This document shows positions 15,526 through 42,737 of a DNA stretch of 64,000 bases, piece after piece. Numbering within the stretch: position 1 is the stretch's first letter; every line of letters begins with the position of its first letter. The translations under genes and the position numbers were made by a program. Source of the stretch: Siphonodentalium dalli (lineage: Eukaryota; Mollusca; Scaphopoda; Gadilida; Siphonodentaliidae); NCBI GenBank assembly GCA_032622095.1, contig CP136066.1, forward strand, positions 169,146,664 to 169,210,663, read 5' to 3'. The notes under the pieces are model-generated. The model did no database searches and had not been told where the DNA came from. It saw only the letters and a program-made list of their open reading frames with translations.

Positions 15526-16338
15526 GTTATACCCCCCGCAACGAAGTTAGGGGGGTATACTGGAGTCAGCTCGTCCGTCCGTCCGTCTGTCGACCGTCCG
15601 TGGACACAAATTTGTCCGGAGTTTTTCTCAGTCGTTTTTTGATCAATTTCCGTGAAACTTGGCACAGACATCAACCACCATGGGAACCTGTGCACCCACG
15701 TTTATGACGTGTGTCGGACATTTTTTGGTGGAGTTATCCCCCTTTTTCGACTTAGAAAATTTTCGCAACATGTATACTTTTGTCCGAGCTTTTATTCCTA
15801 CATTTTTCGGTCAATGTTTTTTAATCTTGGCACTGATATTTAGTACCATGGGAACCTGTGCACCTGCGATTATGACGTCTATCCGACATTTTTTGTGTGG
15901 AGTTATTCCCCTTTTTCGACTTAGAATGTTTTTTCGCAACATACATAATTTTGTCCAAGCTTTTATTCCTAAATGTTTCTGTCAAGAGGTTTAAGCATGT
16001 ACCTTTATTTTACATGATACTTACTTATTATTGAATTATTCACACTTATGTACTCCGCAGAACAACAAAACAGGTACGGCAAACATCGTCTGAAATGAGA
16101 TCTCGTCAACTCTCGTAGCGTTCGCGATATCTCCTCGAGGCGTTATAGAGCGAGCACTGTGAGTCTCGCATACTCCGGATTAACGTACTTGGTTTAAGAT
16201 TAGGGTTATGGTTGTACACCTGCAATGGGAACTGTTATTTTATTATTTTAACTAAATGTTTACTGACATTCGAAACATCTTAGTATTTTAAAAACAGGGG
16301 GGTATCCGTAGTCCCATTGGGACAGTCACACCTCTAGT
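15526..16338. mobile_element. Hairpin-headed TACCCCCC element inserted in the satellite
   Basis: About 813 bp absent from satellite unit 1 at the same point (CTTTT|TGGATT). It starts GTTATACCCCCC and forms a 9-bp stem ATACCCCCC/GGGGGGTAT, then a (CGTC)n tract, then a ~175-bp segment present twice (about 15651-15806 and 15826-15985, sharing ACCATGGGAACCTGTGCACC). It ends GGGGGGTATCCGTAGTCCCA...CACACCTCTAGT. The 111-codon ORF at 15659-15994 is a translation of the internal repeat. No clear target duplication. The left border of the tandem duplication (16208) falls inside it. Confidence 0.65.
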
Positions 16339-16442
16339 TGGATTGTGCGTACCTGGCGGAACCGGCCGCAAGTTAGGAGTTAACAGTACCGTGTCCGCTC
16401 GAGCTATCGACTTGGGGGTTGGAACTTTGGTACATTTAGGTC
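16339..16442. repeat. ~353-bp satellite, middle part of unit 2
   Basis: Resumes with TGGATTGTGCGTACCTGGCG and ends with TACATTTAGGTC, where the foldback element is inserted. 15360-15525 plus this piece plus 18429-18510 add up to 352 bp, one base from unit 1. Confidence 0.8.
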
Positions 16443-18420
16443 GGGTGTGACTAATTACCGCCCGGGCGCCCCCACGGGCCCGTGGACACTATATATCGAC
16501 GTTATAAGGTAGCGACATGCCACCAGAGGGCAACATAGAAGATTTTACTCGCTCGCTCGTCTCCGGTCGGTGTTATTAACCCCGAAAATGCCGATATTGG
16601 CTAAGAGAGCCCGGTAGATCTCGGGTGATCCCGGGTGTCTTCGTGTGTTTTCGGACAGTATATACCACCTGAGTGTGACTTCCAAATATTGACTCGCTGA
16701 CGCATCCACGGCCGATGTTATTAACCCCTCAAAATCCGGTAAAATACCATATAAACAAAAAGAGCCCGGGACCGCCCGGGCGCCCCCATAGGCCCGTGGA
16801 CACTATATCTCGACGTTATAACGTAGCGACATACCCCACGAAGTTAACCTAGAAAATTTTACTCGATCGCTCGTCTCTGGCCGGTTTTATTAACCCCGCA
16901 AATGCCGATATTGGCTAAGAGAGCCCGGGTGTCTTCGTATGTTTTCGGACAGTATAGTTTGGTGATGCGTGGTAGTGCAATAACACCTGATTGTGACTTC
17001 CAAATATTGACTCGTTGGCGCATCCACGGCCGATGTTATCAACCCCTCAAAATCCGGTAAATACCATATAAACAAAAAGAGCCCGGGGCCGCCCTGGACC
17101 GCCCCGGCACCCCCATGGACCCGTGGACACTATATCTCGACGTTATAACGTAGCGGCATACCACACGAGGTCAACCTAGAAGATTTAACAAGCTCGATCG
17201 TATCCGGCCGGTGTTTTATTTACCCCCCCCCCCCACCCCCAACAATATTGACGGCGTCTCGAAACTGTAAGCAAGACTATAGTCGTTTTTATTTACAAGC
17301 ATACAATTCTCCTAGTATTGCTATGAAATAAATTGAAAGTGACTCATGTATTAATCCCTCAGCTGGTATGTCGCTACATAATAACGTCGAGATATGGTGT
17401 CGACGGGCCCATTGGGGCGCCCGGCCTCTCACGGGCTCTTATTGTTGATACGGTATTTCACCTGATTTTTAGGGGTTAATGACATCGGTCGTGGACGCGT
17501 CAGCGAGTCAATATTTGGATGTCACACTCAGGTGTATTGCACTACCACAGTGCACATCACCAAAATATACTGTCCGAAAATACACGAAGACGCCCGGCCT
17601 CCCCGGGCATTCTTAGCCAATATCGGCATTTGTCGGGTTAATAACACCGACCGGAGACGATCGAGCTTGTTAAATGTTCTAGGTTGACCTCGTGGGGTAT
17701 GCCGCTACGTTATAACGTCGAGATATAGTGTCTACGGGTCCATGGGGGTGGTCCCGGGCGGTCTCGGGCTCTTTATGTTTATATTGTATTTTACCGGATT
17801 TTGAGGGGTTAATAACATCGGCCGTCGACGCGTCAACGAGTCAGTATTTGGAATTCACACTCAGGTGTTATTCCACTACCACGCATCACCAAAATATACT
17901 GTCCGAAAAAACACGAAGACACCCGGGCTCTCCCGGGCTCTCTTAACCAATATCGGCATTTGCGGAGTTAATAACACCGACCGGAGACGAGCGAGCTTGT
18001 TAAATTTTCTAGTTTGACCTCGTGTGGTATGCCGCTACGTTATAACGTCGAGATATAGTGTCCACGGGTCCATGGGGGCGGTCCCGGGCTCTTTTTGTTT
18101 ATATTATATTTTACCGGATTTTGAGGGGTTAATAACATCGGCCGTGGACGCGTCAACGGGTCATTATTTGGAAGTCACACTCAGGTGGTATTGCACCACC
18201 ACGTATCACCAAAATATACTGTCCGAAAACACACGAAGACACCGGGCTCCCCCGGGTTCTCTTAGCCAATATCGGCATTTGCGGGGTTAGTAACACCGGC
18301 CGGAGACGAGCGAGCGAGTAAAATCTTCTAGGTTGCCCTCAGGTGGCATGTCGCTACCTTATAACGTCGAGATATAGTGGGCGGTCCCCAGGTGGTCCCG
18401 GGTGGTAATTAGTCACACCG
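16443..18420. mobile_element. Foldback DNA transposon, copy A, with 8-bp target duplication
   Basis: 1978 bp bounded by TTTAGGTC at 16435-16442 and 18421-18428; uninterrupted satellite monomers carry that site once. The termini are inverted: GGTGTGACTAATTACC at the left, GGTAATTAGTCACACC at the right. Each arm is built of tandem subunits of about 310-340 bp with landmarks ATCTCGACGTTATAACG, GTTATTAACCCC, TGCCGATATTGGC and GTGTTTTCGGACAGTATA. The left arm (16443-17216) and right arm (17364-18420) run in opposite directions around a loop that begins with a poly-C tract. No transposase; ORFs inside translate repeats. Non-autonomous; an 8-bp duplication is compatible with hAT- or P-like (Galileo) machinery, not decided here. 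Confidence 0.8.
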
Positions 18421-18820
18421 TTTAGGTCTATTCTGCACGATAGTGCAAACCCCATCACGCTAGGAGCCATGTTGGCGGTGCGGTCGGCGGGTGTTAATTT
18501 CGGCGTTTTTGCGTACATTCCTAGCGAATTCGGCATAGCGTATGGGGTAATTTATCCACTTCTGCTGCAGCTAGCGACTTGTCCGATCGCCCATGGATGT
18601 ATATGGGTATTCACTGCATGATATAATGTCCATTTGCGTCGTCAGGCAGCCAGGGGAGGTGCCTTTTTGGATTTTGAAGTTAAGGGTTAACAGTGCCGTG
18701 TCCGCTCGAGCTATCGACTTTGGAATTGGAACTTTGGTACATTCAGGTCTATTCTGCACGATAGTGCAAACCCCATCACGCTCGGACCCCTGGGGCGGTG
18801 CGGTCCGCTTTTTGTAGGAC
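18421..18820. repeat. ~353-bp satellite, end of unit 2 and unit 3 (copy A)
   Basis: 18421-18428 is the target duplication, 18429-18510 completes unit 2, and unit 3 starts at 18511 with GCGTACATTCCTAGCGAATT, continuing to about 18820. Unit 3 lacks a short segment after CTTTTTGGATTTT compared with unit 1. Confidence 0.75.
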
Positions 18821-18868
18821 CGGCATCGGGTCATGGTTCCTAGGAATCCAGGTTGCTGCTCAGTCGGT

Positions 18869-19175
18869 CAGGTGCATAGCGCATTATTGATATATTATCT
18901 ATATTTCGACGATAAATATAGCATTTTGGGGGTCTAGGTAAAAGGCGGACACATAGTGCCCAAGAGTCCCGGTCCGTCATTCAGACAGCCAGGTGCATAG
19001 CGCATTATTGATATGTTATCTATATTTCGGCGAGAAATATAGCAGTTTCTGGGTAAAAGGCGGACACGGAGTTTGTAATAGCATGTGTATACATCGTGCC
19101 CGTGAGTCTCAGACGGACAGGTGCATAGCGCATTATTGATATCTATATTTCGACGATATATATAGCTGGGTAAAA
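18869..19175. repeat. Three ~121-128-bp tandem repeats with hairpins, copy A
   Basis: CAGGTGCATAGCGCATTATT starts units at 18869, 18990 and 19118. Each carries a hairpin with stems CTATATTT and AAATATAG around a CGACG-like loop (18899-18921, 19020-19042, 19143-19165; the third is mutated). Stem pairing is largely kept between diverged units. Confidence 0.7.
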
Positions 19176-20697
19176 CACGAATGTGTTAATACCGTTTCTA
19201 TGATGGTCCCCCCACCCCCTTTGTCGGAGAATGTAGTTACAGGCGTGTCATATGCTAAGCCACTAAAACCGACGGTAAGCTGATTCCCAAACTACTCTAG
19301 TTCTCGTTATAGGTGTGATGTGATAAGTGACGTTAAACCTCCCACGTGCTGATTGAATCTGCTATTCAGTTTCATAATATGATCCCAGTGTCACACAAAT
19401 GAGTTCAACGCCTAATTAACCAGGGGTATTGTGGAACATATTATAACACGAATCATTAATAATAAAAAAAACTGTTATGCAACCCGTTAGTTCGAGACAG
19501 AAACAATATCACGACAAACAGTTTCCTGAAACATAATAATATATTATTTAATTAGTTCATTTAAACAATGCTTTCTATATATGATACAATAATGCATTTC
19601 TTCTTACAATATCAAGTAATGGCTGTTTCCTGTTTTAGTTCTAGAACCGACTATTCAAAACAAAAAGCGCTTTAAACCCAATGCATTGCAAAAACGTCAG
19701 TGACCAGCTGTATAAGAAAGGTAAGATACATGTAATACAAATGTTGTGCTTCGAATGGATGCAGATTAAATCATTTTTCATTATAACTCTGCTTTTATCG
19801 ATTGTTTAATGTATATGAGTTCAATTTGTTCTACAAACAGCGTAAAACAATAAAGAGCGTTTTGTGTTCCACATGGTAAAATTGAAGAGCGTTTGTGTCT
19901 CATTGGAATATAATCAATAGTGCAGTTCAATTAAGTTGTGCTTGTTGTTGAAAAACAATGACTCGCATATATATGTCGAAAGACATCTGAAATCCAACCA
20001 ACCATGCAAAAACCTGCGTTCTTCAAAACAATTCCACACTCTTTCTATGTGATGCTTCGTGATCGTGGGCATCATATGCCATGGCGATTTAGGTCAACGA
20101 TTCGTTGATGTAAACATATTTTATTCCAATTCTGATACATGTGACACATATGAACATATATTTTGACAATATTGTATAGATAGGTGAATTGGAAAATGGA
20201 TTAAATAACAAGTCCATGGACTTTTATTAAGTTTGCTCCCCAAACGATTCGTTATGCTGGAGAGCCGGATATTTCTGAGAAACACCCACGACCCAATATT
20301 ACTTTTGCTCTGTCGTAATTGTCAGAAAGATAAGATCTTATTCCAGTTACACGCCATCAACCACAGTGTGAATTATAATTCTGTAAAACAAAATACGACA
20401 TACGCGTACCGGTAGGTTCGTCGAATCGCGACACTCTGGAGCTCTTCTCTAGTGAGACCACGCCCATGCGTGTTACAGGTGGTAAATTCCAGCACATTCC
20501 CGTCGAACATCTCGCGCGAAGATACGCAAACCACGCCCATATGGACACCAATTATGCAATGTTCTTTGTGATCTCACACAGACTAATGAACACTAATTTG
20601 CGTAGCCCAATGGCCTGCTCGTGTGTGTTGTCAATCATACCAGTCCACACAATGGTCAGTTCGGCAGAATTTCATATATGGTGGTATGGATTATGGG
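19176..20697. other. Non-coding stretch of unit A
   Basis: AT-rich with no recognised gene. A minus-strand open stretch about 20390-20550 (with EFTTCNTHGRGLTREELQS) lacks splice support. Copy B lacks 8 bp (TAATTTGC) near 20600. Confidence 0.35.
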
Positions 20698-21065
20698 TGC
20701 ACTGACACCGTCAACCAAGCCAACCAACAGCCAAATCCAACAGCCTCGACTCCTCCACCACGCTTCCACTGCTTTGCCTCCAAATACAACAGCCTCAACA
20801 ACCGATTTTCATCGAAGAATTAAAGAAAGGGTGAAGGGAACTGCACAATGCATTCCGACCATCCTAACCGGCCTGCGGCCGGAAACTACACTACACGGGT
20901 GCACTGACAAGGGTGAAGGGAACTGCACAATGCATTCCGACCATCCTAACCGGCCTGCGGCCGGAAACTACACAACAAGGGTGCACTGACAGAACTGTGA
21001 AGGGACCTGCAAAATGCAGTCCGACCATCCAACCCGGCCTTCGACTGGAAACGAGTCGACTGCAG
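20698..21065. repeat. Array of LINE 3' tails, copy A
   Basis: TGCACTGACA occurs at 20698, 20900 and 20982, each followed by a LINE 3' UTR piece with GAAGGGAACTGCACAATGCA and a hairpin CCGGCC-TGC-GGCCGG (the last is GGCCTTCGACTGG). The same UTR ends the reverse-transcriptase-bearing insert in unit B. This looks like serial 5'-truncated insertions into the same site or amplification of the tail. Confidence 0.7.
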
Positions 21066-22529
21066 TGGCAGTAAGATACAGTGTGCGTCCAGACTTATGT
21101 GTGTGTTTTACATGTTCGTGTAGACATTCTATAATATAGGACGTTAGAGAATAATAATGTGCGATGATGTTCAATAAGGTGCGATAATGTTCAATAATGA
21201 TGTATATACAGTTAATATCTCACAGTTTGGAAGATACCTTCCGGATTCGTTGAACTAGAAATATCAACTGACATTGACGCTGAAACTTTCTGATTTTCGT
21301 CGGGATCCGGTGATGGCGCAAAACAAAAGTGTGATTTGTAGCCGAGATAACGTTGACTTCAGTGCGTTGGGTGTCCAGGACTCATAACAGGTAAGTGGTC
21401 TCCAAACCATCGAAATTGTTTTTTTCTTATACATGTACATGTATGCCGTTCTCATTTGTTAAGGTGCCACAACCTTTCGGGAACGAGCACATATGTAGTA
21501 AGTTTATACATTTCGCAATCGAATTGCCTTTCCACACACCCTATGTTAAACCGTTTAGCAGATCATTTTAGTTCGTGGTATGTCAAAGACTTCGAACAGG
21601 ACAGGGGTCCGAAAAACAGTGAAATTCGCCTTTCATATCTGCCAGCGATTAATTCAAAGTATCCCAGACTCCCATGATTCGGGAACCTGATTTATCTCGT
21701 TACATCACATTTGTGAACGTTTTTTTTTATTATCTACCGCTTTTGCGATACCGGAACACTATTGTTGTTTTTTGTTGGGGACACGTTTTTATTATCTACC
21801 GCTTTTGTTGGGATACAGGAGCATGAACGCTATTTATTAGAGCATGTCCTTTTTTCTGGACTGAGAACAATTCGAACATGTTAAAACTTCCTCTTTTGGA
21901 TCTCTCACTTGTTGTTGTTTTTGTTGCGGACATGGTTTCATTGGACCAAGATATCAATTGAATATATCTCTACCTTAGACGTGATTGGTTGTTCTGACGC
22001 TTTGGTCGAATGCTATCCACGATCAGACATGGGAAGTTGTGTTCTGCATCCATTGAAATTTTCAGACAATTTGGTCTCATTGAGCTGGGACGAGCTGGCC
22101 CGTTTCCAAAATATTATATAATATGTATAACATTGATTGATGCACAACATACAGCCGCCTGGGTATCTATTACACACATCTTTATTATTCGGTATCATCT
22201 GACTGCAGCCACGGGCTCAATCTATTTCCAGTCGGCATTCATATTCACACATGCAGTCTCATTGGTAAGAGATGCAAACTATTGTCACACAAGCTGTGAA
22301 TCTGGCCAAAGTTGGATTATATTACTGAAGTCGGATTGCATAATTATGTAGAATAGTATCGAATTTCGTTTTGTATTGATCATATGTACTGACCAGCCTA
22401 ACATTTATTATACTTACCCGAAATTTGGTTATTATTATACTTACCAGATTCTTTGGTTTGGGTCTTATTGGCTCGGGTGGCGTTTCTAGTTGGACGAATT
22501 TGGGACATCTGGTTATCGCCCATATTTTC
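21066..22529. other. Non-coding stretch of unit A
   Basis: No protein family seen. At 21313 a plus-strand 24-codon ORF (MAQNKSVICSRDNVDFSALG at its start) ends just before a strong donor ACAG|GTAAGT near 21390, which could be a 5' UTR exon with an upstream ORF. Two TTTTTATTATCTACCGC words near 21722 and 21787 form a short direct repeat. Confidence 0.3.
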
Positions 22530-22793
22530 GATGGTCACTAAAAAGAGTACCCCGGCCCCGACTCGGAGAAAATGTGTACTCGGAAGATATATGTTGCATA
22601 TATTTTCTACTTTATGGAAAAAACAAATTTCTTTTGCTAAATTATATGCTACTATGCCAATTTATTCAATATATGATAAAAATTTTACCGAAAAAATTAC
22701 TAACATACTTTTTAATAGCATTTTTACTTCGAAAACACACTAAAAAGTGTACTCCAGGAAAAAGTGTACCCGAGCTAAATCTTGAATTTCACG
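22530..22793. repeat. MULE copy A, left terminal inverted repeat
   Basis: Reads GATGGTCACTAAAAAGAG, then GACTCGGAGAAAATGTGTAC, and ends GCTAAATCTTGAATTTCACG. The reverse complement lies at 26806-27038. It carries an extra ~30 bp around TTTTCTACTTTATGG. Confidence 0.9.
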
Positions 22794-23776
22794 CTTCACT
22801 ATCCACTTCACAAACATTAAATGTTGTACAATACTCGTAACAGGTCGTAGAAATATATTGGTGATATGAATTAATTATTTTATGCAGTGAAACATATTCA
22901 ATTCTCACATTTGCCGTGGTGTCAACAAATGTCATACTCCGGCCCGACGCCGACTCGGGGGAAATTGTGTACTCGGAAGACATATGATATAATTGTATCA
23001 CTATTATACGAATAATTTATTATTTCAACGTCGGGGTTTTTAAATTCAGTGTCTTTTGGTTCATTTTAACTCCCCTCATCCTTTATCTGGGCTTGGGACC
23101 AGCAGACTTCGTGGAAGTCAGGCGGATTTAAAGTTTTTGTTTTTGTTTTTGTCTTTTTTTTTAAAGACACATGTATCATCGAACTGTTACACGTTATAAG
23201 TTATACTATGCTGGGAGTACCAGCTAGAGTTCTCATTACTGAACATCGGAGGACAAGAATAACAGCAAGAGCTTTAAATATATTCTACGGGAAAAGTGTT
23301 ACTTTAAAACATCATAACTACCGTCAGTGGTAGATTACATAAAGATAAATTTTAGGGATTACTCTATATAGGCCTAGTACTCTTAAGGAGAAAGCGTGTG
23401 GCCCTGAAAAGGCCCTTTTTAATCTTGGTTTAGACTTTCATCTTCATCTGAAATGATAAAATTGAACACGATTAATAGCTCCACCTGAAATTAAACGTGA
23501 AATTAACATTGTTTTAATACTATAAACAGGCTTATCATTATAATGACATGATCATATTCTTACTGATGTCTTGCTCGTTTTCCGATATTTTTTACCAATT
23601 AAGGATGTCCACGTTCAGCGCGGGTCACTAACGGTGACTCGATCCGAGGTGAGTTGGGCATCAGTAGAATTACACTAGTCTGACTACACGTCAATAGAAC
23701 CATGCAGTCACATGTGTATGATTCATCATGTCATTATACCATACATCATAGCAATAAGGCTGAGTTATCATTTAAT
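22794..23776. other. MULE copy A, non-coding 3' interior
   Basis: Sequence between the left terminal repeat and the transposase stop codon. Besides the partial terminal-repeat copy near 22936 it holds a (TTTTTG)n-like run near 23136. No ORF of note and no polyadenylation signal that I could fix. Confidence 0.5.
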
Positions 23777-25153
23777 TCAAACGGAACAGCTCTTGCATTT
23801 ATAATTATTTGGATCACTTGTACATATATGGTGAACCCATGTATCACATTCTTCTGCAGAACATTCTACCATGTCATCGAATATATTAGGCAAACGGCAT
23901 GTGGATGCTGACAATTTGTTATTAAATGCACTATCATACAGTCTAACTTGGCCGTCACTTTCTTTTGTTGAGAGTACCCAGTGGCTGGTTCCGGTGTGGT
24001 GTATTTGGGCACTGCGCTCACCTGTTGGCTGGAATCTCAAGCTGTAGTTCCATTTTTCATTCGCATCATCATAAACTGGAGCTAACCCAGTATGGAACTG
24101 TTCTTTTGTTATCTGCATGGCGAAGTTGACTATCTCGCTGCATAATTCCTCGTTGTTTACTATTTTGTTACGGTGCGACTGTCTCAGAAATTGTTGGCCG
24201 TTTTTAATCCAGATTGAGTCTACATCTTCCACACACTTACTAGAATCTTCTGGTCCTGTTGTCTGGTCGATTGTTTCTTCCGCTATGACCGAAAGATCGA
24301 TAACTGTGTTCTTTACAGCACTTCCAAACTTCTCAACTTTTTCTTTGATTTTGCTGCCGAATGTTTTTTCCTGATTCACTTGTGTCGGGCATCGGTGTTG
24401 AACAAAGTGGAGTTGCAATGATAGAATCTGGTGCAGGTTTGACACACCTCTCAACGTCTTCTTTGTCGCAAGGACGTGGGCATTCTTGTTTGGTTTCTTT
24501 CTGTTATTTCTCGTCAATTGTGTTAGGTTGTATACTTTCGGCATATTATTGTCGTCATCGCACTTCATTCCAACACTCAACTTGGCAGCCACGATGTGCC
24601 AACAAATACCCAAGGCAGGACATACACATTTTTCGTTAGGGAACAATGTCACTGTATATTTATCACCTTTTGACCCATTGACGACAAACGCACCCGCTTG
24701 TGGACAACTGAACACGTTGTTTTGGTCTACTGCGCGTTGGGCGAGAGCATGTTGTGAGGAGATCGGCCTAATGTGTACATCGTCTTCAGCATCTGTTGAT
24801 TCTTCTTCGTCTTCTGAATCGCGCGTTTGTTGTTTTGCTGATATTGTGTGTTTCATTTGTCCTTTTACGAAGGCGACAATATCAGCTGGCTTGATTATAT
24901 CGTCGGGCATCACAACTGTCTCTGGGTCTCGAATGTGGTGTCTATGTTGTGTTTTTAGTTCATAGTCCCCGACATCACAGAAACCTCTCATCAGTTCAAG
25001 CACATGAAACTTTTGTAAGAAATGAAGTGCCAGAACAACCGAGTCCATAGGCACTTGCTTCCAATCTAATAGATCCTTGTACACATAGTTGAATCCTTTG
25101 TTTGTTATTCCAGAATGATGGTTATATATCCCAAGTTCTTCCAGAACAAACCT
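23777..25153 (-). pseudogene. MULE transposase, C-terminal part: SWIM, truncated Ulp1-like, PHD-like
   Basis: Continues in the same frame as the 25154-26389 ORF after one TGA, running to the stop at 23777. Just after the TGA comes GITNKGFNYVYKDLLDWKQ, where family members usually read TNN..E.FN; the expected third catalytic Glu seems missing. Counting from the codon at 25084, a SWIM zinc finger (CVCPALGICWH, Cys153, Cys155, Cys161, His163) follows an acidic linker. Residues about 290-385 resemble the N-terminal half of an Ulp1/C48 peptidase (HTGTSHWVLST, VRLYDSAF) but the usual DCG active-site segment is absent. Then comes a PHD-like Cys/His tail (CDTWVHHIC, CKSC). Copy B differs by two residues. 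Likely inactive as it stands; read-through or splicing cannot be excluded. Confidence 0.8.
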
Positions 25154-26389
25154 TCAGCAATGCTCTTGGATGGACTGCTTTATGTTGGCATTGCAATGTT
25201 CGAGGAAGGATGCACTCCAGTTGACACTTAATGCTGCTACCATATCGTCAAACTCTTGTTGAGTTTCGCAACGGAGAAGACTGTAAATATCAGTGCAATA
25301 GACAGCCACATCATCACCTTTACCGCCGTGCTTTCGCACCCAAACTTTTATGTCACTCTTTATATGGTTCCAACAGAAGACGAGCTTTGCGTTTGGAACA
25401 AAATTGGATATCGCATTTGAGAAGGCACTTTCTCTGTCCGTAATTATTATTGGTCGTCCGGTGGTCATGTGTGGAACAGCAGCAACCATTTCTCTCCAGA
25501 AAGTGTCGTGAGTTTTCTGTGTTTTTCGTTCGTGTATGATAAATGACACTGGGAAGCACATCTTTCCTTTGAAAAATGGATGTTTCACTACCAGTGCCGA
25601 AACGAAAAAGTCACCAAGATTGAATGTAGTATCATACGACAATACAACTATCTCGTCGCCACCTGCTGCTAAGAGGCGATTTAACTCAATTAGAATGTCT
25701 TTGTCTGCAACAACAAGTCTAAGCTCTGGGTATACTGAATATTCTAAAACAAAACTATCAAGTGAATAGGCGAGCACAAGTGTATTGTACGCCGCATCGT
25801 GTGATATTTTCCTCTCTTTTGTAGCTAAATAGCGCCGATTTTCTACCTGCTTTCTATTTTTTGCATTCTTGATACCTTGTTCTGCTATTGTGATGTTGGA
25901 TGCGGTCACGCTGTCTCTGTATATCTTGGCTGGCTCACGGTCTACACTCTGCGATTTCAAAGACGACAGCGTTGATTTTAACGTTCGCTTGTGTGGCTGT
26001 TCTGTCTGTTTCGCATTTCCATGTGGGCGATCGACGTAAACTGTCTCGTCGCCTATGTAGTGGACCAATGCCAATTCGTCATGCAGAGAGTTGTAGATTA
26101 CACGTTTAAAACGTGTGTCGCCGACAGCATCTTTAGCGGAGCCTTTTATTCTATAATCACGACGAATCATTACAGGGTCGTTTTTTGGAACTCTTTTACC
26201 GCCTTTGTTCACCCACATGTACTGGTCACATGTTGCATCTTGTTGGCTATTGAGTAGATATATCTCACCACCTCGAGGTTTTAATGGCGGCGTCGCAGAG
26301 ACATTTTCTAAGGATGGATTCTTTAAAATCTCGATAACTTCACGGAAATCTAATAGATCTCTCCTTGTGTCATATATAGACACAGTCAT
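25154..26389 (-). CDS. MULE transposase, N-terminal part with DDE core
   Basis: A 411-codon frame from ATG at 26389 to TGA at 25154. Residues 55-120 (YMWVNKGGKRVPKNDP, LALVHYIGDETVY) and PHGN at 123-126 match the N-terminal region common in animal MULE proteins. The RNase-H-like transposase core follows: Asp253 in SYDTTFNLG, Asp318 in IITDRESAF, then CxxH in VFCWNHIKSDIKVW (Cys339, His342). The third acidic residue would lie beyond the TGA. The enzyme would cut and join the terminal inverted repeats in the nucleus. The identical ORF in unit B shows the TGA predates the duplication. I chose this ATG because a TATA-like box lies about 180 bp upstream and no earlier in-frame ATG fits. Confidence 0.85.
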   Translation of the reverse strand: MTVSIYDTRRDLLDFREVIEILKNPSLENVSATPPLKPRGGEIYLLNSQQDATCDQYMWVNKGGKRVPKNDPVMIRRDYRIKGSAKDAVGDTRFKRVIYNSLHDELALVHYIGDETVYVDRPHGNAKQTEQPHKRTLKSTLSSLKSQSVDREPAKIYRDSVTASNITIAEQGIKNAKNRKQVENRRYLATKERKISHDAAYNTLVLAYSLDSFVLEYSVYPELRLVVADKDILIELNRLLAAGGDEIVVLSYDTTFNLGDFFVSALVVKHPFFKGKMCFPVSFIIHERKTQKTHDTFWREMVAAVPHMTTGRPIIITDRESAFSNAISNFVPNAKLVFCWNHIKSDIKVWVRKHGGKGDDVAVYCTDIYSLLRCETQQEFDDMVAALSVNWSASFLEHCNANIKQSIQEHC

Positions 26390-26570
26390 TGTAACAGTAT
26401 AATAAATTTGAATATACTTGATAAGGATTTACGTGCGTACCCACGCTTAGCCTGAGCGGTAAACAATTGAAAATAATTAGCACTTACTTGGGAGCAAACT
26501 TGTCGCTGCCTACCAGGTTCGCTGTCGAGTCACGAATGATGATGATAAACTTGATAATGACGACTGGGTG

Positions 26571-26579
26571 TTTTATATA
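26571..26579 (-). promoter_or_regulatory. TATA box of the MULE transposase, copy A
   Basis: TATATAAAA on the minus strand, 182 bp upstream of the ATG and inside the element between the right terminal repeat and the ORF. A donor-like CCCAA|GTAAGTGC near 26490 suggests a possible 5' UTR intron. Not tested. Confidence 0.45.
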
Positions 26580-26805
26580 GAGAAATGTTTCTAACGAAAG
26601 ATTAAATGTAACATATTTTAGTGAAACAAAATGTAATATGAGTGACTATATAACACCAAACGACAGGGCGAATTACGACATATCAAACTTGTCACATAGG
26701 GCCTTCATAATGTGTTTTATTGGGTAAACAATCATGCATGTGCTGACAGAAGTATAAGAGAATACGAAAGCAAACCTTATGCGTGATAGATTATAAACGT
26801 GAAAT

Positions 26806-27038
26806 TCAAGATTTAGCTCGGGTACACTTTTTCCTGGAGTACACTTTTTAGTGTGTTTTCGAAGTAAAAATGCTATTAAAAAGTATGTTAGTAATTTTTT
26901 CGGTAAATTTTTTATCACATATTGAATAAATTGGCATAGTAGCATATAATTTAGCAAAAGATATGTAACATATATCTTCCGAGTACACATTTTCTCCGAG
27001 TCGGAGCCGGGGCCGGAGTACACTTTTTAGTGACCATC
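26806..27038. repeat. MULE copy A, right terminal inverted repeat
   Basis: Reverse complement of the left repeat, ending CTTTTTAGTGACCATC followed by the 9-bp duplication CATATTTTC. Confidence 0.9.
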
Positions 27039-27047
27039 CATATTTTC

Positions 27048-27400
27048 CTCTACAGTAGTTGCCCTTGTTGACTTGACCACGTTGTCGAGACCTTGATGTT
27101 TTATGTCCAGCCTATACAGCTTTTTGAAACTACACGAAATAAGCCGATATAGGGATTATTTGAATCTGAATTAAGCTCTATGTGAACCTAAATGGGACAT
27201 ACGAACAGTCGTATATCAATTTATTTCAACTCGAAATAAGCTCATGAAAAGTCAGAATTTAATATACTTGTTTCGTCAACACGACGTACCAGATGAACGC
27301 TCTTTATAATGTGTTTTCACTGCGACCCGCGCCATTCAACGAAATGACGGATAAAAGTCCTGTCTGGAGCTTATTTCAGAATAAAATGATTTTCTTTATT
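27048..27400. other. Short non-coding stretch after MULE copy A
   Basis: No gene or repeat recognised; it separates the intact MULE from the diverged MULE-like fragment. Confidence 0.4.
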
Positions 27401-28186: not shown

Positions 28187-28279
28187 GTTGCTCGGCTTGT
28201 CCTTATTTTGCAGAACGACGAAGTGAGTGGTATAATAATGTCCCTAAAAAGAAAGATATATTACATTTGAGATTTAAAA

Positions 28280-29886: not shown

Positions 29887-29963
<77 letters not shown>

Positions 29964-29995: not shown

Positions 29996-30042
<47 letters not shown>

Positions 30043-31670: not shown

Positions 31671-32071
31671 TTTAGGTCTATTCTGCACGATAGTGCAAAC
31701 CCCATCACGCTAGGAGCCATGTTGGCGGTGCGGTCGGCGGGTGTTAATTTCGGCGTTTTTGCGTACATTCCTAGCGAATTCGGCATAGCGTATGGGGTAA
31801 TTTATCCACTTCTGCTGCAGCTAGCGACTTGTCCGATCGCCCATGGATGTATATGGGTATTCACTGCATGATATAATGTCCATTTGCGTCGTCAGGCAGC
31901 CAGGGGAGGTGCCTTTTTGGATTTTGAAGTTAAGGGTTAACAGTGCCGTGTCCACTCGAGCTATCGACTTTGGAATTGGAACTTTGGTACATTCAGGTCT
32001 ATTCTGCACGATAGTGCAAACCCCATCACGCTCGGACCCCTGGGGCGGTGCGGTCGGCTTTTTGTAGGACC
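31671..32071. repeat. ~353-bp satellite, unit B copy
   Basis: Copy of 18421-18820, with two substitutions seen (CCGCTCGAG to CCACTCGAG; GGTCCGC to GGTCGGC). Confidence 0.75.
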
Positions 32072-32118
32072 GGCATCGGGTCATGGTTCCTAGGAATCCA
32101 GGTTGCTGCTCAGTCGGT

Positions 32119-32426
32119 CAGGTGCATAGCGCATTATTGATATATTATCTATATTTCGACGATAAATATAGCATTTTGGGGGTCTAGGTAAAAGGCGGAC
32201 ACATAGTGCCCAAGAGTCCCGGTCCGTCATTCAGACAGCCAGGTGCATAGCGCATTATTGATATGTTATCTATATTTCGGCGAGAAATATAGCAGTTTCT
32301 GGGTAAAAGGCGGACACGGAGTTTGTAATAGCATGTGTATACATCGTGCCCGTGAGTCTCAGACGGACAGGTGCATAGCGCATTATTGATATCTATATTT
32401 CGACGATATATATAGCTGGGTAAAAC
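32119..32426. repeat. Three ~121-128-bp tandem hairpin repeats, unit B
   Basis: Copy of 18869-19175, same three units with CAGGTGCATAGCGCATTATT starts and CTATATTT/AAATATAG stems. Confidence 0.7.
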
Positions 32427-33940
32427 ACGAATGTGTTAATACCGTTTCTATGATGGTCCCCCCCACCCCCTTTGTCGGAGAATGTAGTTACAGGCGTGTC
32501 ATATGCTAAGCCACTAAAACCGACGGTAAGCTGATTCCCAAACTACTCTAGTTCTCGTTATAGGTGTGATGTGATAAGTGACGTTAAACCTCCCACGTGC
32601 TGATTGAATCTGCTATTCAGTTTCATAATATGATCCCAGTGTCACACAAATGAGTTCAACGCCTAATTAACCAGGGGTATTGTGGAACATATTATAACAC
32701 GAATCATTAATAATAAAAAAAACTGTTATGCAACCCGTTAGTTCGAGACAGAAACAATATCACGACAAACAGTTTCCTGAAACATAATAATATATTATTT
32801 AATTAGTTCATTTAAACAATGCTTTCTATATATGATACAATAATGCATTTCTTCTTACAATATCAAGTAATGGCTGTTTCCTGTTTTAGTTCTAGAACCG
32901 ACTATTCAAAACAAAAAGCGCTTTAAACCCAATGCATTGCAAAAACGTCAGTGACCAGCTGTATAAGAAAGGTAAGATACATGTAATACAAATGTTGTGC
33001 TTCGAATGGATGCAGATTAAATCATTTTTCATTATAACTCTGCTTTTATCGATTGTTTAATGTATATGAGTTCAATTTGTTCTACAAACAGCGTAAAACA
33101 ATAAAGAGCGTTTTGTGTTCCACATGGTAAAATTGAAGAGCGTTTGTGTCTCATTGGAATATAATCAATAGTGCAGTTCAATTAAGTTGTGCTTGTTGTT
33201 GAAAAACAATGACTCGCATATATATGTCGAAAGACATCTGAAATCCAACCAACCATGCAAAAACCTGCGTTCTTCAAAACAATTCCACACTCTTTCTATG
33301 TGATGCTTCGTGATCGTGGGCATCATATGCCATGGCGATTTAGGTCAACGATTCGTTGATGTAAACATATTTTATTCCAATTCTGATACATGTGACACAT
33401 ATGAACATATATTTTGACAATATTGTATAGATAGGTGAATTGGAAAATGGATTAAATAACAAGTCCATGGACTTTTATTAAGTTTGCTCCCCAAACGATT
33501 CGTTATGCTGGAGAGCCGGATATTTCTGAGAAACACCCACGACCCAATATTACTTTTGCTCTGTCGTAATTGTCAGAAAGATAAGATCTTATTCCAGTTA
33601 CACGCCATCAACCACAGTGTGAATTATAATTCTGTAAAACAAAATACGACATACGCGTACCGGTAGGTTCGTCGAATCGCGACACTCTGGAGCTCTTCTC
33701 TAGTGAGACCACGCCCATGCGTGTTACAGGTGGTAAATTCCAGCACATTCCCGTCGAACATCTCGCGCGAAGATACGCAAACCACGCCCATATGGACACC
33801 AATTATGCAATGTTCTTTGTGATCTCACACAGACTAATGAACACGTAGCCCAATGGCCTGCTCGTGTGTGTTGTCAATCATACCAGTCCACACAATGGTC
33901 AGTTCGGCAGAATTTCATATATGGTGGTATGGATTATGGG
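32427..33940. other. Non-coding stretch of unit B
   Basis: Copy of 19176-20697 with the 8-bp deletion near 33845. No gene recognised. Confidence 0.35.
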
Positions 33941-35172
33941 TGCACTGACACATAGAACACATCATCAGAATAGCAGAAGACGTCCGACTATCCCTAGGAA
34001 AAAACTGGACAACAGGCGCAGTCTTCCTAGACGTAGAAAAAGCCTTCGACTCAGTATGGCACGACGGCCTCCGATACAAGATCAGCCACCTCAACCTTGC
34101 AAGAAAATACACACGCCTCATCTCCTCATTCCTAAAAGACCGTCAACTCAGCGTCCGCATCAACAACGAAACATCAAACCCAGTCCACCTACGCGCCGGA
34201 ACACCACAAGGATCAGTACTAAGCCCACTCCTCTTCTTAATCTACGCCAACGACCTACCCATAGACAAGAGAAACAACGTTGAAATATCACAGTTCGCCG
34301 ACGACCTAGGACTCTGGACGACTCATACAAACCCTCGAATCCTACAGAAAAGACTACAAAAGACACTCGACGACCTATCAACATGGTGCTCAAAATGGAG
34401 AATTAAACTCAACGCCAAAAAGACCCAACTCATCATATTCCACAGAAGAAAAACAACACAATCCATCGACATCAAGATAGACAACGAGACAATCCAACCA
34501 TCCAACCAAGCGATCCTACTAGGAATAACACTAGACCAGCAAATGACCTTCATCCCTCACATCAACAAGATAGCCGATAAAGCTCGAAAAAGAACAAATC
34601 TACTACGATGCCTCCTGGGAACAGACTGGGGAACCAACAGCCAAACCCTCATCAACCTCTACCAAATCTACGTCCGACCAGTCATGGAGTACGGTGCTGC
34701 CGTCCTCACAGCAGCCCCAAAGACATACATTGAAAAACTACAGAAAGTCCAAAACCTAGCCCTCCGCATCGCGCTCCGCCAACCACCATGGACACCGATC
34801 AACGCCCTCCACGACGCAGCGAACATACCTACAATCAAGCAAAGACTGACGGATCTCAGAAACATGACACTATCCCGACTAGACAACAGCCCACTCCTCC
34901 TAGAACTACAAGTCAGAAATCAACTACTCACCACGAAAAAGACAAAGTCCATCCTACAACTAGACGCAACAGACAGACCCATATAACCTCGACAGCACAT
35001 GACGACTCCACCATGCTTCCGCCGCTTTGCCTCCAACCACAGTAACCACGACAGCCACAAGATCGATCCCCATCGAACATATCAAGAAAGGGTGAAGGGA
35101 CTTGCACACTGCAGTCCGACCATCCTACCCGGCCTTCGGCCGGAAACGACTCAACAACAACTGCACTGACAC
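33941..35172 (+). mobile_element. 5'-truncated LINE with reverse transcriptase, unit B only
   Basis: The insert lies between two copies of TGCACTGACAC (33941-33951 and 35162-35172); unit A has one copy (20698-20708). This is the form expected for an 11-bp target duplication, although the word also ends the LINE 3' tails. The 3' UTR (about 34987-35161) has GGGTGAAGGGACTTGCACAC and a hairpin CCGGCC-TTC-GGCCGG like the tails that follow. Confidence 0.8.
33952..34986 (+). pseudogene. LINE reverse transcriptase fragment (Jockey/CR1-like)
   Basis: Open without interruption for 344 codons to TAA at 34986, but with no start because the element is 5'-truncated. Reverse-transcriptase motifs appear in order: FLDVEKAFDSVWHDGL (first catalytic Asp), AGTPQGSVLSPLLFLIYAND, ISQFADDLGLWT (the ADD box) and KLNAKKTQLIIF. 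A thumb/connection follows with LLGITLDQQMTF and PVMEYGAAVLTAAP. The intact catalytic motifs and absence of stops indicate a young insertion. Codon use is C-rich, unlike the AT-rich surroundings. It lacks the N-terminal endonuclease, so it cannot move on its own. Confidence 0.9.
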
Positions 35173-35529
35173 CGTCAACCAAGCCAACCAACAGCCAAAT
35201 CCAACAGCCTCGACTCCTCCACCACGCTTCCACTGCTTTGCCTCCAAATACAACAGCCTCAACAACCGATTTTCATCGAAGAATTAAAGAAAGGGTGAAG
35301 GGAACTGCACAATGCATTCCGACCATCCTAACCGGCCTGCGGCCGGAAACTACACTACACGGGTGCACTGACAAGGGTGAAGGGAACTGCACAATGCATT
35401 CCGACCATCCTAACCGGCCTGCGGCCGGAAACTACACAACAAGGGTGCACTGACAGAACTGTGAAGGGACCTGCAAAATGCAGTCCGACCATCCAACCCG
35501 GCCTTCGACTGGAAACGAGTCGACTGCAG
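35162..35529. repeat. Array of LINE 3' tails, unit B
   Basis: Copy of 20698-21065 directly downstream of the LINE insert. TGCACTGACA is at 35162, 35364 and 35446. Confidence 0.7.
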
Positions 35530-36993
35530 TGGCAGTAAGATACAGTGTGCGTCCAGACTTATGTGTGTGTTTTACATGTTCGTGTAGACATTCTATAATA
35601 TAGGACGTTAGAGAATAATAATGTGCGATGATGTTCAATAAGGTGCGATAATGTTCAATAATGATGTATATACAGTTAATATCTCACAGTTTGGAAGATA
35701 CCTTCCGGATTCGTTGAACTAGAAATATCAACTGACATTGACGCTGAAACTTTCTGATTTTCGTCGGGATCCGGTGATGGCGCAAAACAAAAGTGTGATT
35801 TGTAGCCGAGATAACGTTGACTTCAGTGCGTTGGGTGTCCAGGACTCATAACAGGTAAGTGGTCTCCAAACCATCGAAATTGTTTTTTTCTTATACATGT
35901 ACATGTATGCCGTTCTCATTTGTTAAGGTGCCACAACCTTTCGGGAACGAGCACATATGTAGTAAGTTTATACATTTCGCAATCGAATTGCCTTTCCACA
36001 CACCCTATGTTAAACCGTTTAGCAGATCATTTTAGTTCGTGGTATGTCAAAGACTTCGAACAGGACAGGGGTCCGAAAAACAGTGAAATTCGCCTTTCAT
36101 ATCTGCCAGCGATTAATTCAAAGTATCCCAGACTCCCATGATTCGGGAACCTGATTTATCTCGTTACATCACATTTGTGAACGTTTTTTTTTATTATCTA
36201 CCGCTTTTGCGATACCGGAACACTATTGTTGTTTTTTGTTGGGGACACGTTTTTATTATCTACCGCTTTTGTTGGGATACAGGAGCATGAACGCTATTTA
36301 TTAGAGCATGTCCTTTTTTCTGGACTGAGAACAATTCGAACATGTTAAAACTTCCTCTTTTGGATCTCTCACTTGTTGTTGTTTTTGTTGCGGACATGGT
36401 TTCATTGGACCAAGATATCAATTGAATATATCTCTACCTTAGACGTGATTGGTTGTTCTGACGCTTTGGTCGAATGCTATCCACGATCAGACATGGGAAG
36501 TTGTGTTCTGCATCCATTGAAATTTTCAGACAATTTGGTCTCATTGAGCTGGGACGAGCTGGCCCGTTTCCAAAATATTATATAATATGTATAACATTGA
36601 TTGATGCACAACATACAGCCGCCTGGGTATCTATTACACACATCTTTATTATTCGGTATCATCTGACTGCAGCCACGGGCTCAATCTATTTCCAGTCGGC
36701 ATTCATATTCACACATGCAGTCTCATTGGTAAGAGATGCAAACTATTGTCACACAAGCTGTGAATCTGGCCAAAGTTGGATTATATTACTGAAGTCGGAT
36801 TGCATAATTATGTAGAATAGTATCGAATTTCGTTTTGTATTGATCATATGTACTGACCAGCCTAACATTTATTATACTTACCCGAAATTTGGTTATTATT
36901 ATACTTACCAGATTCTTTGGTTTGGGTCTTATTGGCTCGGGTGGCGTTTCTAGTTGGACGAATTTGGGACATCTGGTTATCGCCCATATTTTC
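35530..36993. other. Non-coding stretch of unit B
   Basis: Copy of 21066-22529; no gene recognised. Confidence 0.35.
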
Positions 36994-38239
36994 GATGGTC
37001 ACTAAAAAGAGTACCCCGGCCCCGACTCGGAGAAAATGTGTACTCGGAAGATATATGTTGCATATATTTTCTACTTTATGGAAAAACAAATTTCTTTTGC
37101 TAAATTATATGCTACTATGCCAATTTATTCAATATATGATAAAAATTTTACCGAAAAAATTACTAACATACTTTTTAATAGCATTTTTACTTCGAAAACA
37201 CACTAAAAAGTGTACTCCAGGAAAAAGTGTACCCGAGCTAAATCTTGAATTTCACGCTTCACTATCCACTTCACAAACATTAAATGTTGTACAATACTCG
37301 TAACAGGTCGTAGAAATATATTGGTGATATGAATTAATTATTTTATGCAGTGAAACATATTCAATTCTCACATTTGCCGTGGTGTCAACAAATGTCATAC
37401 TCCGGCCCGACGCCGACTCGGGGGAAATTGTGTACTCGGAAGACATATGATATAATTGTATCACTATTATACGAATAATTTATTATTTCAACGTCGGGGT
37501 TTTTAAATTCAGTGTCTTTTGGTTCATTTTAACTCCCCTCATCCTTTATCTGGGCTTGGGACCAGCAGACTTCGTGGAAGTCAGGCGGATTTAAAGTTTT
37601 TGTTTTTGTTTTTGTCTTTTTTTTTAAAGACACATGTATCATCGAACTGTTACACGTTATAAGTTATACTATGCTGGGAGTACCAGCTAGAGTTCTCATT
37701 ACTGAACATCGGAGGACAAGAATAACAGCAAGAGCTTTAAATATATTCTACGGGAAAAGTGTTACTTTAAAACATCATAACTACCGTCAGTGGTAGATTA
37801 CATAAAGATAAATTTTAGGGATTACTCTATATAGGCCTAGTACTCTTAAGGAGAAAGCGTGTGGCCCTGAAAAGGCCCTTTTTAATCTTGGTTTAGACTT
37901 TCATCTTCATCTGAAATGATAAAATTGAACACGATTAATAGCTCCACCTGAAATTAAACGTGAAATTAACATTGTTTTAATACTATAAACAGGCTTATCA
38001 TTATAATGACATGATCATATTCTTACTGATGTCTTGCTCGTTTTCCGATATTTTTTACCAATTAAGGATGTCCACGTTCAGCGCGGGTCACTAACGGTGA
38101 CTCGATCCGAGGTGAGTTGGGCATCAGTAGAATTACACTAGTCTGACTACACGTCAATAGAACCATGCAGTCACATGTGTATGATTCATCATGTCATTAT
38201 ACCATACATCATAGCAATAAGGCTGAGTTATCATTTAAT

Positions 38240-39616
38240 TCAAACGGAACAGCTCTTGCATTTATAATTATTTGGATCACTTGTACATATATGGTGAACC
38301 CATGTATCACATTCTTCTGCAGAACATTCTACCATGTCATCGAATATATTAGGCAAACGGCATGTGGATGCTGACAATTTGTTATTAAATGCACTATCAT
38401 ACAGTCTAACTTGGCCGTCACTTTTTTTTGTTGAGAGTACCCAGTGGCTGGTTCCGGTGTGGTGTATTTGGGCACTGCGCTCACCTGTTGGCTGGAATCT
38501 CAAGCTGTAGTTCCATTTTTCATTCGCATCATCATAAACTGGAGCTAACCCAGTATGGAACTGTTCTTTTGTTATCTGCATGGCGAAGTTGACTATCTCG
38601 CTGCATAATTCCTCGTTGTTTACTATTTTGTTACGGTGCGACTGTCTCAGAAATTGTTGGCCGTTTTTAATCCAGATTGAGTCTACATCTTCCACATACT
38701 TACTAGAATCTTCTGGTCCTGTTGTCTGGTCGATTGTTTCTTCCGCTATGACCGAAAGATCGATAACTGTGTTCTTTACAGCACTTCCAAACTTCTCAAC
38801 TTTTTCTTTGATTTTGCTGCCGAATGTTTTTTCCTGATTCACTTGTGTCGGGCATCGGTGTTGAACAAAGTGGAGTTGCAATGATAGAATCTGGTGCAGG
38901 TTTGACACACCTCTCAACGTCTTCTTTGTCGCAAGGACGTGGGCATTCTTGTTTGGTTTCTTTCTGTTATTTCTCGTCAATTGTGTTAGGTTGTATACTT
39001 TCGGCATATTATTGTCGTCATCGCACTTCATTCCAACACTCAACTTGGCAGCCACGATGTGCCAACAAATACCCAAGGCAGGACATACACATTTTTCGTT
39101 AGGGAACAATGTCACTGTATATTTATCACCTTTTGACCCATTGACGACAAACGCACCCGCTTGTGGACAACTGAACACGTTGTTTTGGTCTACTGCGCGT
39201 TGGGCGAGAGCATGTTGTGAGGAGATCGGCCTAATGTGTACATCGTCTTCAGCATCTGTTGATTCTTCTTCGTCTTCTGAATCGCGCGTTTGTTGTTTTG
39301 CTGATATTGTGTGTTTCATTTGTCCTTTTACGAAGGCGACAATATCAGCTGGCTTGATTATATCGTCGGGCATCACAACTGTCTCTGGGTCTCGAATGTG
39401 GTGTCTATGTTGTGTTTTTAGTTCATAGTCCCCGACATCACAGAAACCTCTCATCAGTTCAAGCACATGAAACTTTTGTAAGAAATGAAGTGCCAGAACA
39501 ACCGAGTCCATAGGCACTTGCTTCCAATCTAATAGATCCTTGTACACATAGTTGAATCCTTTGTTTGTTATTCCAGAATGATGGTTATATATCCCAAGTT
39601 CTTCCAGAACAAACCT
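38240..39616 (-). pseudogene. MULE transposase, C-terminal part, copy B
   Basis: Matches 23777-25153, including the upstream TGA, SWIM finger, truncated Ulp1-like domain and PHD-like tail. Two amino-acid changes are seen: Cys to Tyr in the DSSK-C-VEDVD segment and Glu to Lys in LSTKESDG. Both are single-base changes. Confidence 0.8.
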
Positions 39617-40852
39617 TCAGCAATGCTCTTGGATGGACTGCTTTATGTTGGCATTGCAATGTTCGAGGAAGGATGCACTCCAGTTGACACTTAATGCTGC
39701 TACCATATCGTCAAACTCTTGTTGAGTTTCGCAACGGAGAAGACTGTAAATATCAGTGCAATAGACAGCCACATCATCACCTTTACCGCCGTGCTTTCGC
39801 ACCCAAACTTTTATGTCACTCTTTATATGGTTCCAACAGAAGACGAGCTTTGCGTTTGGAACAAAATTGGATATCGCATTTGAGAAGGCACTTTCTCTGT
39901 CCGTAATTATTATTGGTCGTCCGGTGGTCATGTGTGGAACAGCAGCAACCATTTCTCTCCAGAAAGTGTCGTGAGTTTTCTGTGTTTTTCGTTCGTGTAT
40001 GATAAATGACACTGGGAAGCACATCTTTCCTTTGAAAAATGGATGTTTCACTACCAGTGCCGAAACGAAAAAGTCACCAAGATTGAATGTAGTATCATAC
40101 GACAATACAACTATCTCGTCGCCACCTGCTGCTAAGAGGCGATTTAACTCAATTAGAATGTCTTTGTCTGCAACAACAAGTCTAAGCTCTGGGTATACTG
40201 AATATTCTAAAACAAAACTATCAAGTGAATAGGCGAGCACAAGTGTATTGTACGCCGCATCGTGTGATATTTTCCTCTCTTTTGTAGCTAAATAGCGCCG
40301 ATTTTCTACCTGCTTTCTATTTTTTGCATTCTTGATACCTTGTTCTGCTATTGTGATGTTGGATGCGGTCACGCTGTCTCTGTATATCTTGGCTGGCTCA
40401 CGGTCTACACTCTGCGATTTCAAAGACGACAGCGTTGATTTTAACGTTCGCTTGTGTGGCTGTTCTGTCTGTTTCGCATTTCCATGTGGGCGATCGACGT
40501 AAACTGTCTCGTCGCCTATGTAGTGGACCAATGCCAATTCGTCATGCAGAGAGTTGTAGATTACACGTTTAAAACGTGTGTCGCCGACAGCATCTTTAGC
40601 GGAGCCTTTTATTCTATAATCACGACGAATCATTACAGGGTCGTTTTTTGGAACTCTTTTACCGCCTTTGTTCACCCACATGTACTGGTCACATGTTGCA
40701 TCTTGTTGGCTATTGAGTAGATATATCTCACCACCTCGAGGTTTTAATGGCGGCGTCGCAGAGACATTTTCTAAGGATGGATTCTTTAAAATCTCGATAA
40801 CTTCACGGAAATCTAATAGATCTCTCCTTGTGTCATATATAGACACAGTCAT
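39617..40852 (-). CDS. MULE transposase, N-terminal part with DDE core, copy B
   Basis: The 411-codon product is identical to that of 25154-26389, with the same Asp253, Asp318 and Cys339/His342 and the same TGA end. Everything inferred for copy A applies; lack of any difference over 1.2 kb argues for a recent duplication or a haplotype duplicate. Confidence 0.85.
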   Translation of the reverse strand: MTVSIYDTRRDLLDFREVIEILKNPSLENVSATPPLKPRGGEIYLLNSQQDATCDQYMWVNKGGKRVPKNDPVMIRRDYRIKGSAKDAVGDTRFKRVIYNSLHDELALVHYIGDETVYVDRPHGNAKQTEQPHKRTLKSTLSSLKSQSVDREPAKIYRDSVTASNITIAEQGIKNAKNRKQVENRRYLATKERKISHDAAYNTLVLAYSLDSFVLEYSVYPELRLVVADKDILIELNRLLAAGGDEIVVLSYDTTFNLGDFFVSALVVKHPFFKGKMCFPVSFIIHERKTQKTHDTFWREMVAAVPHMTTGRPIIITDRESAFSNAISNFVPNAKLVFCWNHIKSDIKVWVRKHGGKGDDVAVYCTDIYSLLRCETQQEFDDMVAALSVNWSASFLEHCNANIKQSIQEHC

Positions 40853-41033
40853 TGTAACAGTATATTAAATTTGAATATACTTGATAAGGATTTACGTGCG
40901 TACCCACGCTTAGCCTGAGCGGTAAACAATTGAAAATAATTAGCACTTACTTGGGAGCAAACTTGTCGCTGCCTACCAGGTTCGCTGTCGAGTCACGAAT
41001 GATGATGATAAACTTGATAATGACGACTGGGTG

Positions 41034-41042
41034 TTTTATATA
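41034..41042 (-). promoter_or_regulatory. TATA box of the MULE transposase, copy B
   Basis: TATATAAAA, 182 bp upstream of the ATG at 40852, as in copy A. Confidence 0.45.
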
Positions 41043-41863
41043 GAGAAATGTTTCTAACGAAAGATTAAATGTAACATATTTTAGTGAAACAAAATGTAAT
41101 ATGAGTGACTATATAACACCAAACGACAGGGCGAATTACGACATATCAAACTTGTCACATAGGGCCTTCATAATGTGTTTTATTGGGTAAACAATCATGC
41201 ATGTGCTGACAGAAGTATAAGAGAATACGAAAGCAAACCTTATGCGTGATAGATTATAAACGTGAAATTCAAGATTTAGCTCGGGTACACTTTTTCCTGG
41301 AGTACACTTTTTAGTGTGTTTTCGAAGTAAAAATGCTATTAAAAAGTATGTTAGTAATTTTTTCGGTAAATTTTTTATCACATATTGAATAAATTGGCAT
41401 AGTAGCATATAATTTAGCAAAAGATATGTAACATATATCTTCCGAGTACACATTTTCTCCGAGTCGGAGCCGGGGCCGGAGTACACTTTTTAGTGACCAT
41501 CCATATTTTCCTCTACAGTAGTTGCCCTTGTTGACTTGACCACGTTGTCGAGACCTTGATGTTTTATGTCCAGCCTATACAGCTTTTTGAAACTACACGA
41601 AATAAGCCGATATAGGGATTATTTGAATCTGAATTAAGCTCTATGTGAACCTAAATGGGACATACGAACAGTCGTATATCAATTTATTTCAACTCGAAAT
41701 AAGCTCATGAAAAGTCAGAATTTAATATACTTGTTTCGTCAACACGACGTACCAGATGAACGCTCTTTATAATGTGTTTTCACTGCGACCCGCGCCATTC
41801 AACGAAATGACGGATAAAAGTCCTGTCTGGAGCTTATTTCAGAATAAAATGATTTTCTTTATT

Positions 41864-42177
41864 TACGAATGGGTGGTATTGGACTAAGTTCTCAACTTGT
41901 TGAACATGATATGCAAGGTTGCGGCGATTTCCTTCAACGTTGTCGTTTTTTATCTCTTGTTGATATTTGATGTTCTGCACTTGATTTCGGGCCTTGGGGC
42001 TGAGTAGACATCTTCTTCCTCGTTGACCAGTTTTCGATATACTTGATGTGGCTGTCGATGCTTGTTTTTGTCCATTTTGTCCATAGCTGCTTTAGGCATC
42101 CTGACATAATCCGCAGACAGTTTAGTACTGTTCCCATGTGGCGCTGCTCCCGGAAATTTACCGATATATTCAATCAT
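41864..42177 (-). pseudogene. Diverged MULE-type N-terminal fragment, unit B
   Basis: Copy of 27401-27714 with the same PHGN and HPFV segments and the same frameshift, so the damage predates the duplication. Confidence 0.5.
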
Positions 42178-42649
42178 TGCACGTTTCTTGATTGACAGGT
42201 ACTCGTGATCGATCCAAGTTATTCTTGTTGTTTGGCAACGGTTGTCCGGTTATCGGCGGTTTAGATTCTCCAGTGATTAAATCAGTGTAAATTTTCGAAA
42301 TATCAGCATCATTGTCATACTTTCTGTTTGGCAACGGTTGTCCGGTTATCGGTGGTGTAGATTCTACAGTGATTAAATCATTGTCATTGTTCGAAATATC
42401 AGCATCGTTGTCACGTGCAACAAGTATAAAAATTGGTAGAATCGCTGGTAGAATCGTCACTGAGTCCCTCAACTATATATATATTGTTGTGTCAAAATCG
42501 TTGTCAATATAAACGATTGGTGCTACAATCGTTGTATCGATGGACGGAACGAAACGTACTCCTCTGGTCACTGGTCGGTTGGCTGGTTGGGGCGTAGGAT
42601 ATTCCGGTTTTTCCAGTATTGTTGGATCAATGACTTGTGGCGTAGACAT
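42170..42649 (-). CDS. ORF with duplicated 32-residue segment, unit B
   Basis: Copy of 27707-28186 with the same internal TAG in the (TA)n run and the same two PPITGQPLPN units. Unrecognised. Confidence 0.35.
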
Positions 42650-42737
42650 GTTGCTCGGCTTGTCCTTATTTTGCAGAACGACGAAGTGAGTGATATAATA
42701 ATGTCCCTAAAAAGAAAGATATATTACATTTGAGATT

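Follow-up and report, generated by a model that had tools for sequence, protein, structure and literature searches.

The window, by which we mean the whole 64,000-nucleotide stretch of Siphonodentalium dalli DNA that was analysed (C6:169146664-169210663), lies in an assembly of 2.23 Gb in nine contigs. Comparison of the window with itself by BLAST yielded two adjoining copies of one unit in direct orientation, referred to here as A and B (Table 1). They were paired over 16208-17053/28280-29126, 17047-20708/30295-33951 and 20698-28281/35162-42743 at 99.65-99.91% identity, a similarity that exceeds chance by far. An earlier sequence-only reading had reported a block of ~12.07 kb occurring twice, head to tail, and both the BLAST pairs and the alignment of A with B bear this out; the end of the unit, which that reading put at 42737, is best placed at 42743. 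Somewhat over half of the unit consists of identified mobile elements.

Table 1. Features of the duplicated unit and its right flank (window coordinates; TIR, terminal inverted repeat; TSD, target-site duplication)
Feature	Position	Strand	Remarks
Copy A, 12.07-kb unit	16208-28279		ancestral left edge; final bases TTTAAAAA ancestral, no filler
Foldback-like DNA element	16443-18420		long inverted arms of about 330-bp units; 8-bp TSD TTTAGGTC
Older LINE tails, three in A	20698-21052	+	each preceded by TGCACTGACA
MULE DNA transposon	22530-27038	-	TIRs 22530-22796 and 26795-27038; perfect 9-bp TSD CATATTTTC; MULE domain E 2.3e-9
Type-P1 twister ribozyme match (predicted)	23069-23134	-	69.7 bits against an Rfam gathering threshold of 67.2
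Sole new joint	28274-28281		ancestral right end ...AAAAAT fused to unit start ATGG... via common AT
Copy B	28280-42743		two LINE-type insertions, 8-bp deletion, altered right end
LINE-type fragment 1	29119-30294	+	inside left arm of foldback element; microsatellite-rich 3' part
LINE fragment 2	33952-35161	+	5'-truncated; RVT_1 E 2.5e-25; (CAA)n tail
MULE, second copy	about 36994-41501		located by offset
Type-P1 twister match, second copy	37532-37597	-	
Right flank	42744-50993		collinear with paralogue P2

Differences between the copies and their polarity

The alignment of A with B contained six internal substitutions (A positions 18704, 18806, 23962, 24234, 26402 and 28230), two C-runs longer in B by two and by one C, a single A-run difference and 8 bp at 20593-20600 of A that were missing in B. 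The right end of B was also altered, reading TTACAAAT in place of TTTAAAAAT. The roughly seven substitutions noticed earlier and the coordinates given for the block are essentially right; a few small indels are added. Two pieces were specific to B, namely 29119-30294, with an aligned length of 1,176 bp, and 33941-35161, whose 1,221 bp include a target-site duplication of 11 bp; these are the two extra LINE pieces of ~1.2 kb of the earlier reading. Six substitutions in about 12,046 bp correspond to a divergence of 0.050% (95% interval 0.018-0.108%).

The right edge has two older counterparts on this chromosome, P1 and P2, which lie about 120-250 kb upstream (sequence TTTAAAAATAATACTC). P2 is collinear with window positions 42224-50993, a stretch of 8.8 kb at 97.7% identity that begins within the unit and crosses its right edge, and P1 is collinear with 42232-45533 at 92.7%, again across the right edge. 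The left edge at 16208 is crossed by P1 and by all five loci cut from other chromosomes, the latter in alignments starting at 16191. That the left edge is the end of a mobile element was ruled out, as the copies extend leftwards. Since the relatives are continuous across both outer edges, only the joint between A and B is new.

Comparison with the paralogues also indicated which copy had changed. The 8 bp missing in B are present in P1, so they were deleted in B. Polarity could be assigned for two of the six substitutions, 18704 being derived in B and 28230 in A. Neither LINE site is occupied in A, and fragment 2 is absent from P1 too, so the LINE-type fragments are derived in B. Judged by these comparisons, the derived changes lie mostly in B (two LINE-type insertions, the 8-bp deletion, one substitution and the right end), with one in A.

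The joint between the copies

The full joint (161 bases) was matched once among the 40 scored matches of 111 candidates in a search of the 2.23-Gb assembly. Its right half, including TAAAA, also matched P1 (C6:168942695-168942776) and P2 (C6:169055941-169056021), which read identically across the right edge: GAGATTTAAAAATAATACTC. The sequence-only reading had taken TAAAA for a 5-nt filler. Its presence in P1 and P2 shows that it is ancestral instead, that copy A retains the ancestral end and that B has changed there since; the joint is a 2-bp microhomology (AT), which is close to chance expectation. Paralogue comparison can thus overturn the interpretation of bases at a breakpoint as filler. 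A search for a nearby template of the filler yielded a match of 8 bp, but equally good ones occur at random places, and the idea was dropped as P1 and P2 show no filler.

The earlier claim that the junction lacks long homology held: only AT is common, and the local score of one unit edge against the other was 10 (opposite strand 13), within a null distribution with a mean of 13.1 and a maximum of 19. By this test no homology was detected between the two unit edges, which speaks against recombination between repeats; the edges do not have the homology of a product of non-allelic homologous recombination. The MULE was ruled out as an element at the breakpoint, as it is internal to the unit.

Mobile elements in and around the unit

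A MULE domain, TIRs and a 9-bp target-site duplication were all found at 22530-27038, which identifies this element as a MULE. Its TIRs have diverged by about 2.5% (a count by eye gave 6 mismatches in 238 columns), against 0.050% between the two copies of the unit. The open frame 25154-26428 (-) also matched the CG-1 DNA-binding domain (E 1.5e-5); between this frame and the following one, 23777-25153, stands a stop codon. One half of the MULE was compared at the protein level with viral contigs and the other half with bacterial and archaeal genome contigs, and neither comparison gave a relative. P1 had no match at the location of the MULE, though P1 is rearranged in that part; at the site of the foldback-like element, P1 is empty.

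The predicted twister is placed between the MULE open frames and the downstream TIR. Truncated twisters occur in RTE retrotransposons according to a passage of PMC7761336. Among the papers listed, titles and abstract openings showed no case of a twister within a MULE, and the word ribozyme is absent from PMC6446971, a MULE paper. The MULE also contains, upstream of the twister, a weak match resembling a histone 3' stem-loop at 23376-23420 (-), with 22.5 bits against a gathering threshold of 34.

Pfam scans covered five open frames and then ten more, the latter being 4 of the unit's 37, 6 of the 14 to the right of B and 0 of the 16 to the left of A; none of these ten had a match. Among the 6 of the 37 unit open frames (at least 75 aa) that were scanned, only the MULE frame matched and no host gene was found, so that a small or split one could still be present. 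Right of B, MIR7533 was matched below threshold on either strand at 57373-57661 (75 and 72 bits against a gathering threshold of 230), over a palindromic repeat that is probably a mobile-element hairpin.

Fragment 1 contains an open frame of 205 aa (29083-29700) that begins in the flank, and from this reading frame we take it to be a probable LINE. A Pfam scan of fragment 1 gave no match, and it has no clean target-site duplication (0-1 bp only). Fragment 2 has a reverse transcriptase match, a truncated 5' end and an 11-bp target-site duplication (33941-33951 and 35162-35172), as would be expected of a LINE insertion; no protein relatives of it were found in viral contigs. All three old tails share the target TGCACTGACA with the newly inserted fragment 2. 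In P1 a single target of this kind occurs, differing at one base, and of the tails just the last is present. Tails 1 and 2 closely resemble each other and could alternatively go back to a single insertion and a later tandem duplication of 82 bp.

A search with the tail of fragment 2 produced 1,209 candidates, of which 40 were scored, one of them the window's own. The other 39 were represented by their 20 best, and TGCACTGACA was found in none of the 3' flanks of these, which rules out that the element is site-specific; a further copy at C6:168938589-168938658 also sits at a different site. One 10-bp site (in 20698-21052 and 33941-35172) seems to have been hit more than once by a LINE family without site specificity elsewhere (0/20 copies). 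With three such sites per 12 kb, the chance that a single insertion falls within a base of one of them is ~7e-4, a value computed post hoc.

The surrounding 330.5 kb (C6:168920001-169250500), which contain no N, are prone to duplication and densely populated by mobile elements. Copies spaced 105-125 kb apart (superunits of about 115 kb) account for 88.7 kb of BLAST alignments with a mean identity of 94.5%. A 3.76-kb unit is present three times in tandem at C6:168991356-169003394 and once in the next superunit; neighbouring copies of the triplet differ by 2/3764 and 1/3765 substitutions, and BLAST, over longer stretches including indels and the outer end, gave 99.0-99.5%. From 0.77-kb end repeats and gag/protease matches we read this unit as a probable LTR retrotransposon. 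Downstream of the window, 5.6-kb tandem copies (at least 96.6% identical) occupy C6:169214580-169236290, and a 963-aa open frame at C6:169230897-169233785 is LINE-like by eye. Two superunits carry one like open frame each, C6:169021497-169022141 and C6:169137071-169137715; the latter matched Pyridoxal_deC (E 3e-16) and the former is nearly the same by eye. One might speculate that the region is an active hot spot at scales of about 115 kb, 12 kb, 5.6 kb and 3.76 kb, with a 10-bp site in the unit taken repeatedly by one LINE family whose 20 other copies examined all lie at different sites, the locus and not the element attracting breaks and insertions; we consider this possible but doubtful.

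Probable origin of the two copies

Two direct adjacent copies, ancestral outer edges and one new internal joint are all present here, as expected of a tandem segmental duplication. We are confident that the 12.07-kb unit underwent a real and recent tandem duplication in one chromosome; the event is probably real and ordinary in kind, and older duplications surround it. It would have occurred in the germline, with a joint made by end joining or replication template switching and not by repeat recombination, and the LINE-type insertions of B would have come after it. The likely order of events would be superunit duplication, insertion of the foldback element, the LINEs and the MULE, the 12-kb duplication and finally the two LINE-type insertions in B. 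The locus preserves this likely order and allows duplication to be measured against transposition.

A young duplication was also favoured by the sequence-only reading, and the lack of a gap, the 0.05% divergence, the 2-bp joint and the derived state of the LINE and 8-bp differences in B support it, but the statement that an assembly artefact would give the same picture was too pessimistic. The artefact would be a false haplotype duplication, in which A and B are two alleles of one locus placed serially by the assembler. Presence or absence of a LINE is a common allelic difference, which counts in its favour, and low-diversity or homozygous stretches also reduce allelic divergence. Six substitutions would be only mildly unlikely at an assumed heterozygosity of 0.1% (P = 0.04), whereas P is 1e-5 at an assumed 0.2% and about 2e-43 at an assumed 1%, where about 121 would be expected in 12 kb; the divergence of 0.050% would therefore argue against joined haplotypes. 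At the joint, moreover, just 2 bp of overlap were available to the assembler. Passages of PMC9516828 describe false duplications as frequent in assemblies and sometimes joined by unsupported sequence, give half depth, gaps between copies, discordant pairs and single-copy k-mers as their marks, and mention a true allele-specific tandem duplication inside one contig. Of these marks the one examined here was a gap between the copies, which is absent (no N in 330.5 kb); we regard the artefact as improbable.

In our judgement, the ratio of two LINE insertions to about seven substitutions is high for neutral time after a duplication. We therefore retain as a rival a real duplication that joined two different homologues, since it can explain this ratio: the LINE differences would have been allelic already and silent on the time since duplication, and both insertions do lie in the same copy. 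Such an origin is not needed, however, and the very low substitution divergence between A and B speaks against it; we give it a minor share of the probability. As an inter-homologue joint would still be a real duplication, the two explanations overlap and our confidences need not sum to one. Tandem copies often convert, and A and B might represent an older duplication homogenised by gene conversion, but the differences are spread between 17 kb and 28 kb in copy A coordinates and neither LINE insertion has been erased, making this quite improbable. Circles also yield head-to-tail copies, and an excised circle re-inserted at its own site by homology would be expected to give the same picture. 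That the unit is such a circle, or itself a mobile element, we nevertheless consider very improbable; against a mobile element, each edge lies within older sequence that is continuous across it in the relatives.

The real tandem duplication that we favour is like tandem segmental duplications formed by microhomology or end joining in its direct orientation, its one new joint and its 2-bp microhomology. For clustered human CNVs, a passage of PMC6258378 gives microhomology at 30 of 63 resolved joints, with a median of 2. It differs from that type in that identified mobile elements make up over half of the unit and two LINE-type fragments have been added to one copy. False heterotype duplications as described in PMC9516828 likewise consist of near-identical neighbouring copies that differ by indels, but here there is no gap, divergence is very low and the joint is clean. 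Finally, the upstream 3.76-kb triplet, which we read as the result of unequal LTR exchange, likewise comprises recent tandem copies (0.03-0.05% different); in contrast to the triplet, which is apparently repeat-mediated, the 12-kb unit has edges without homology.
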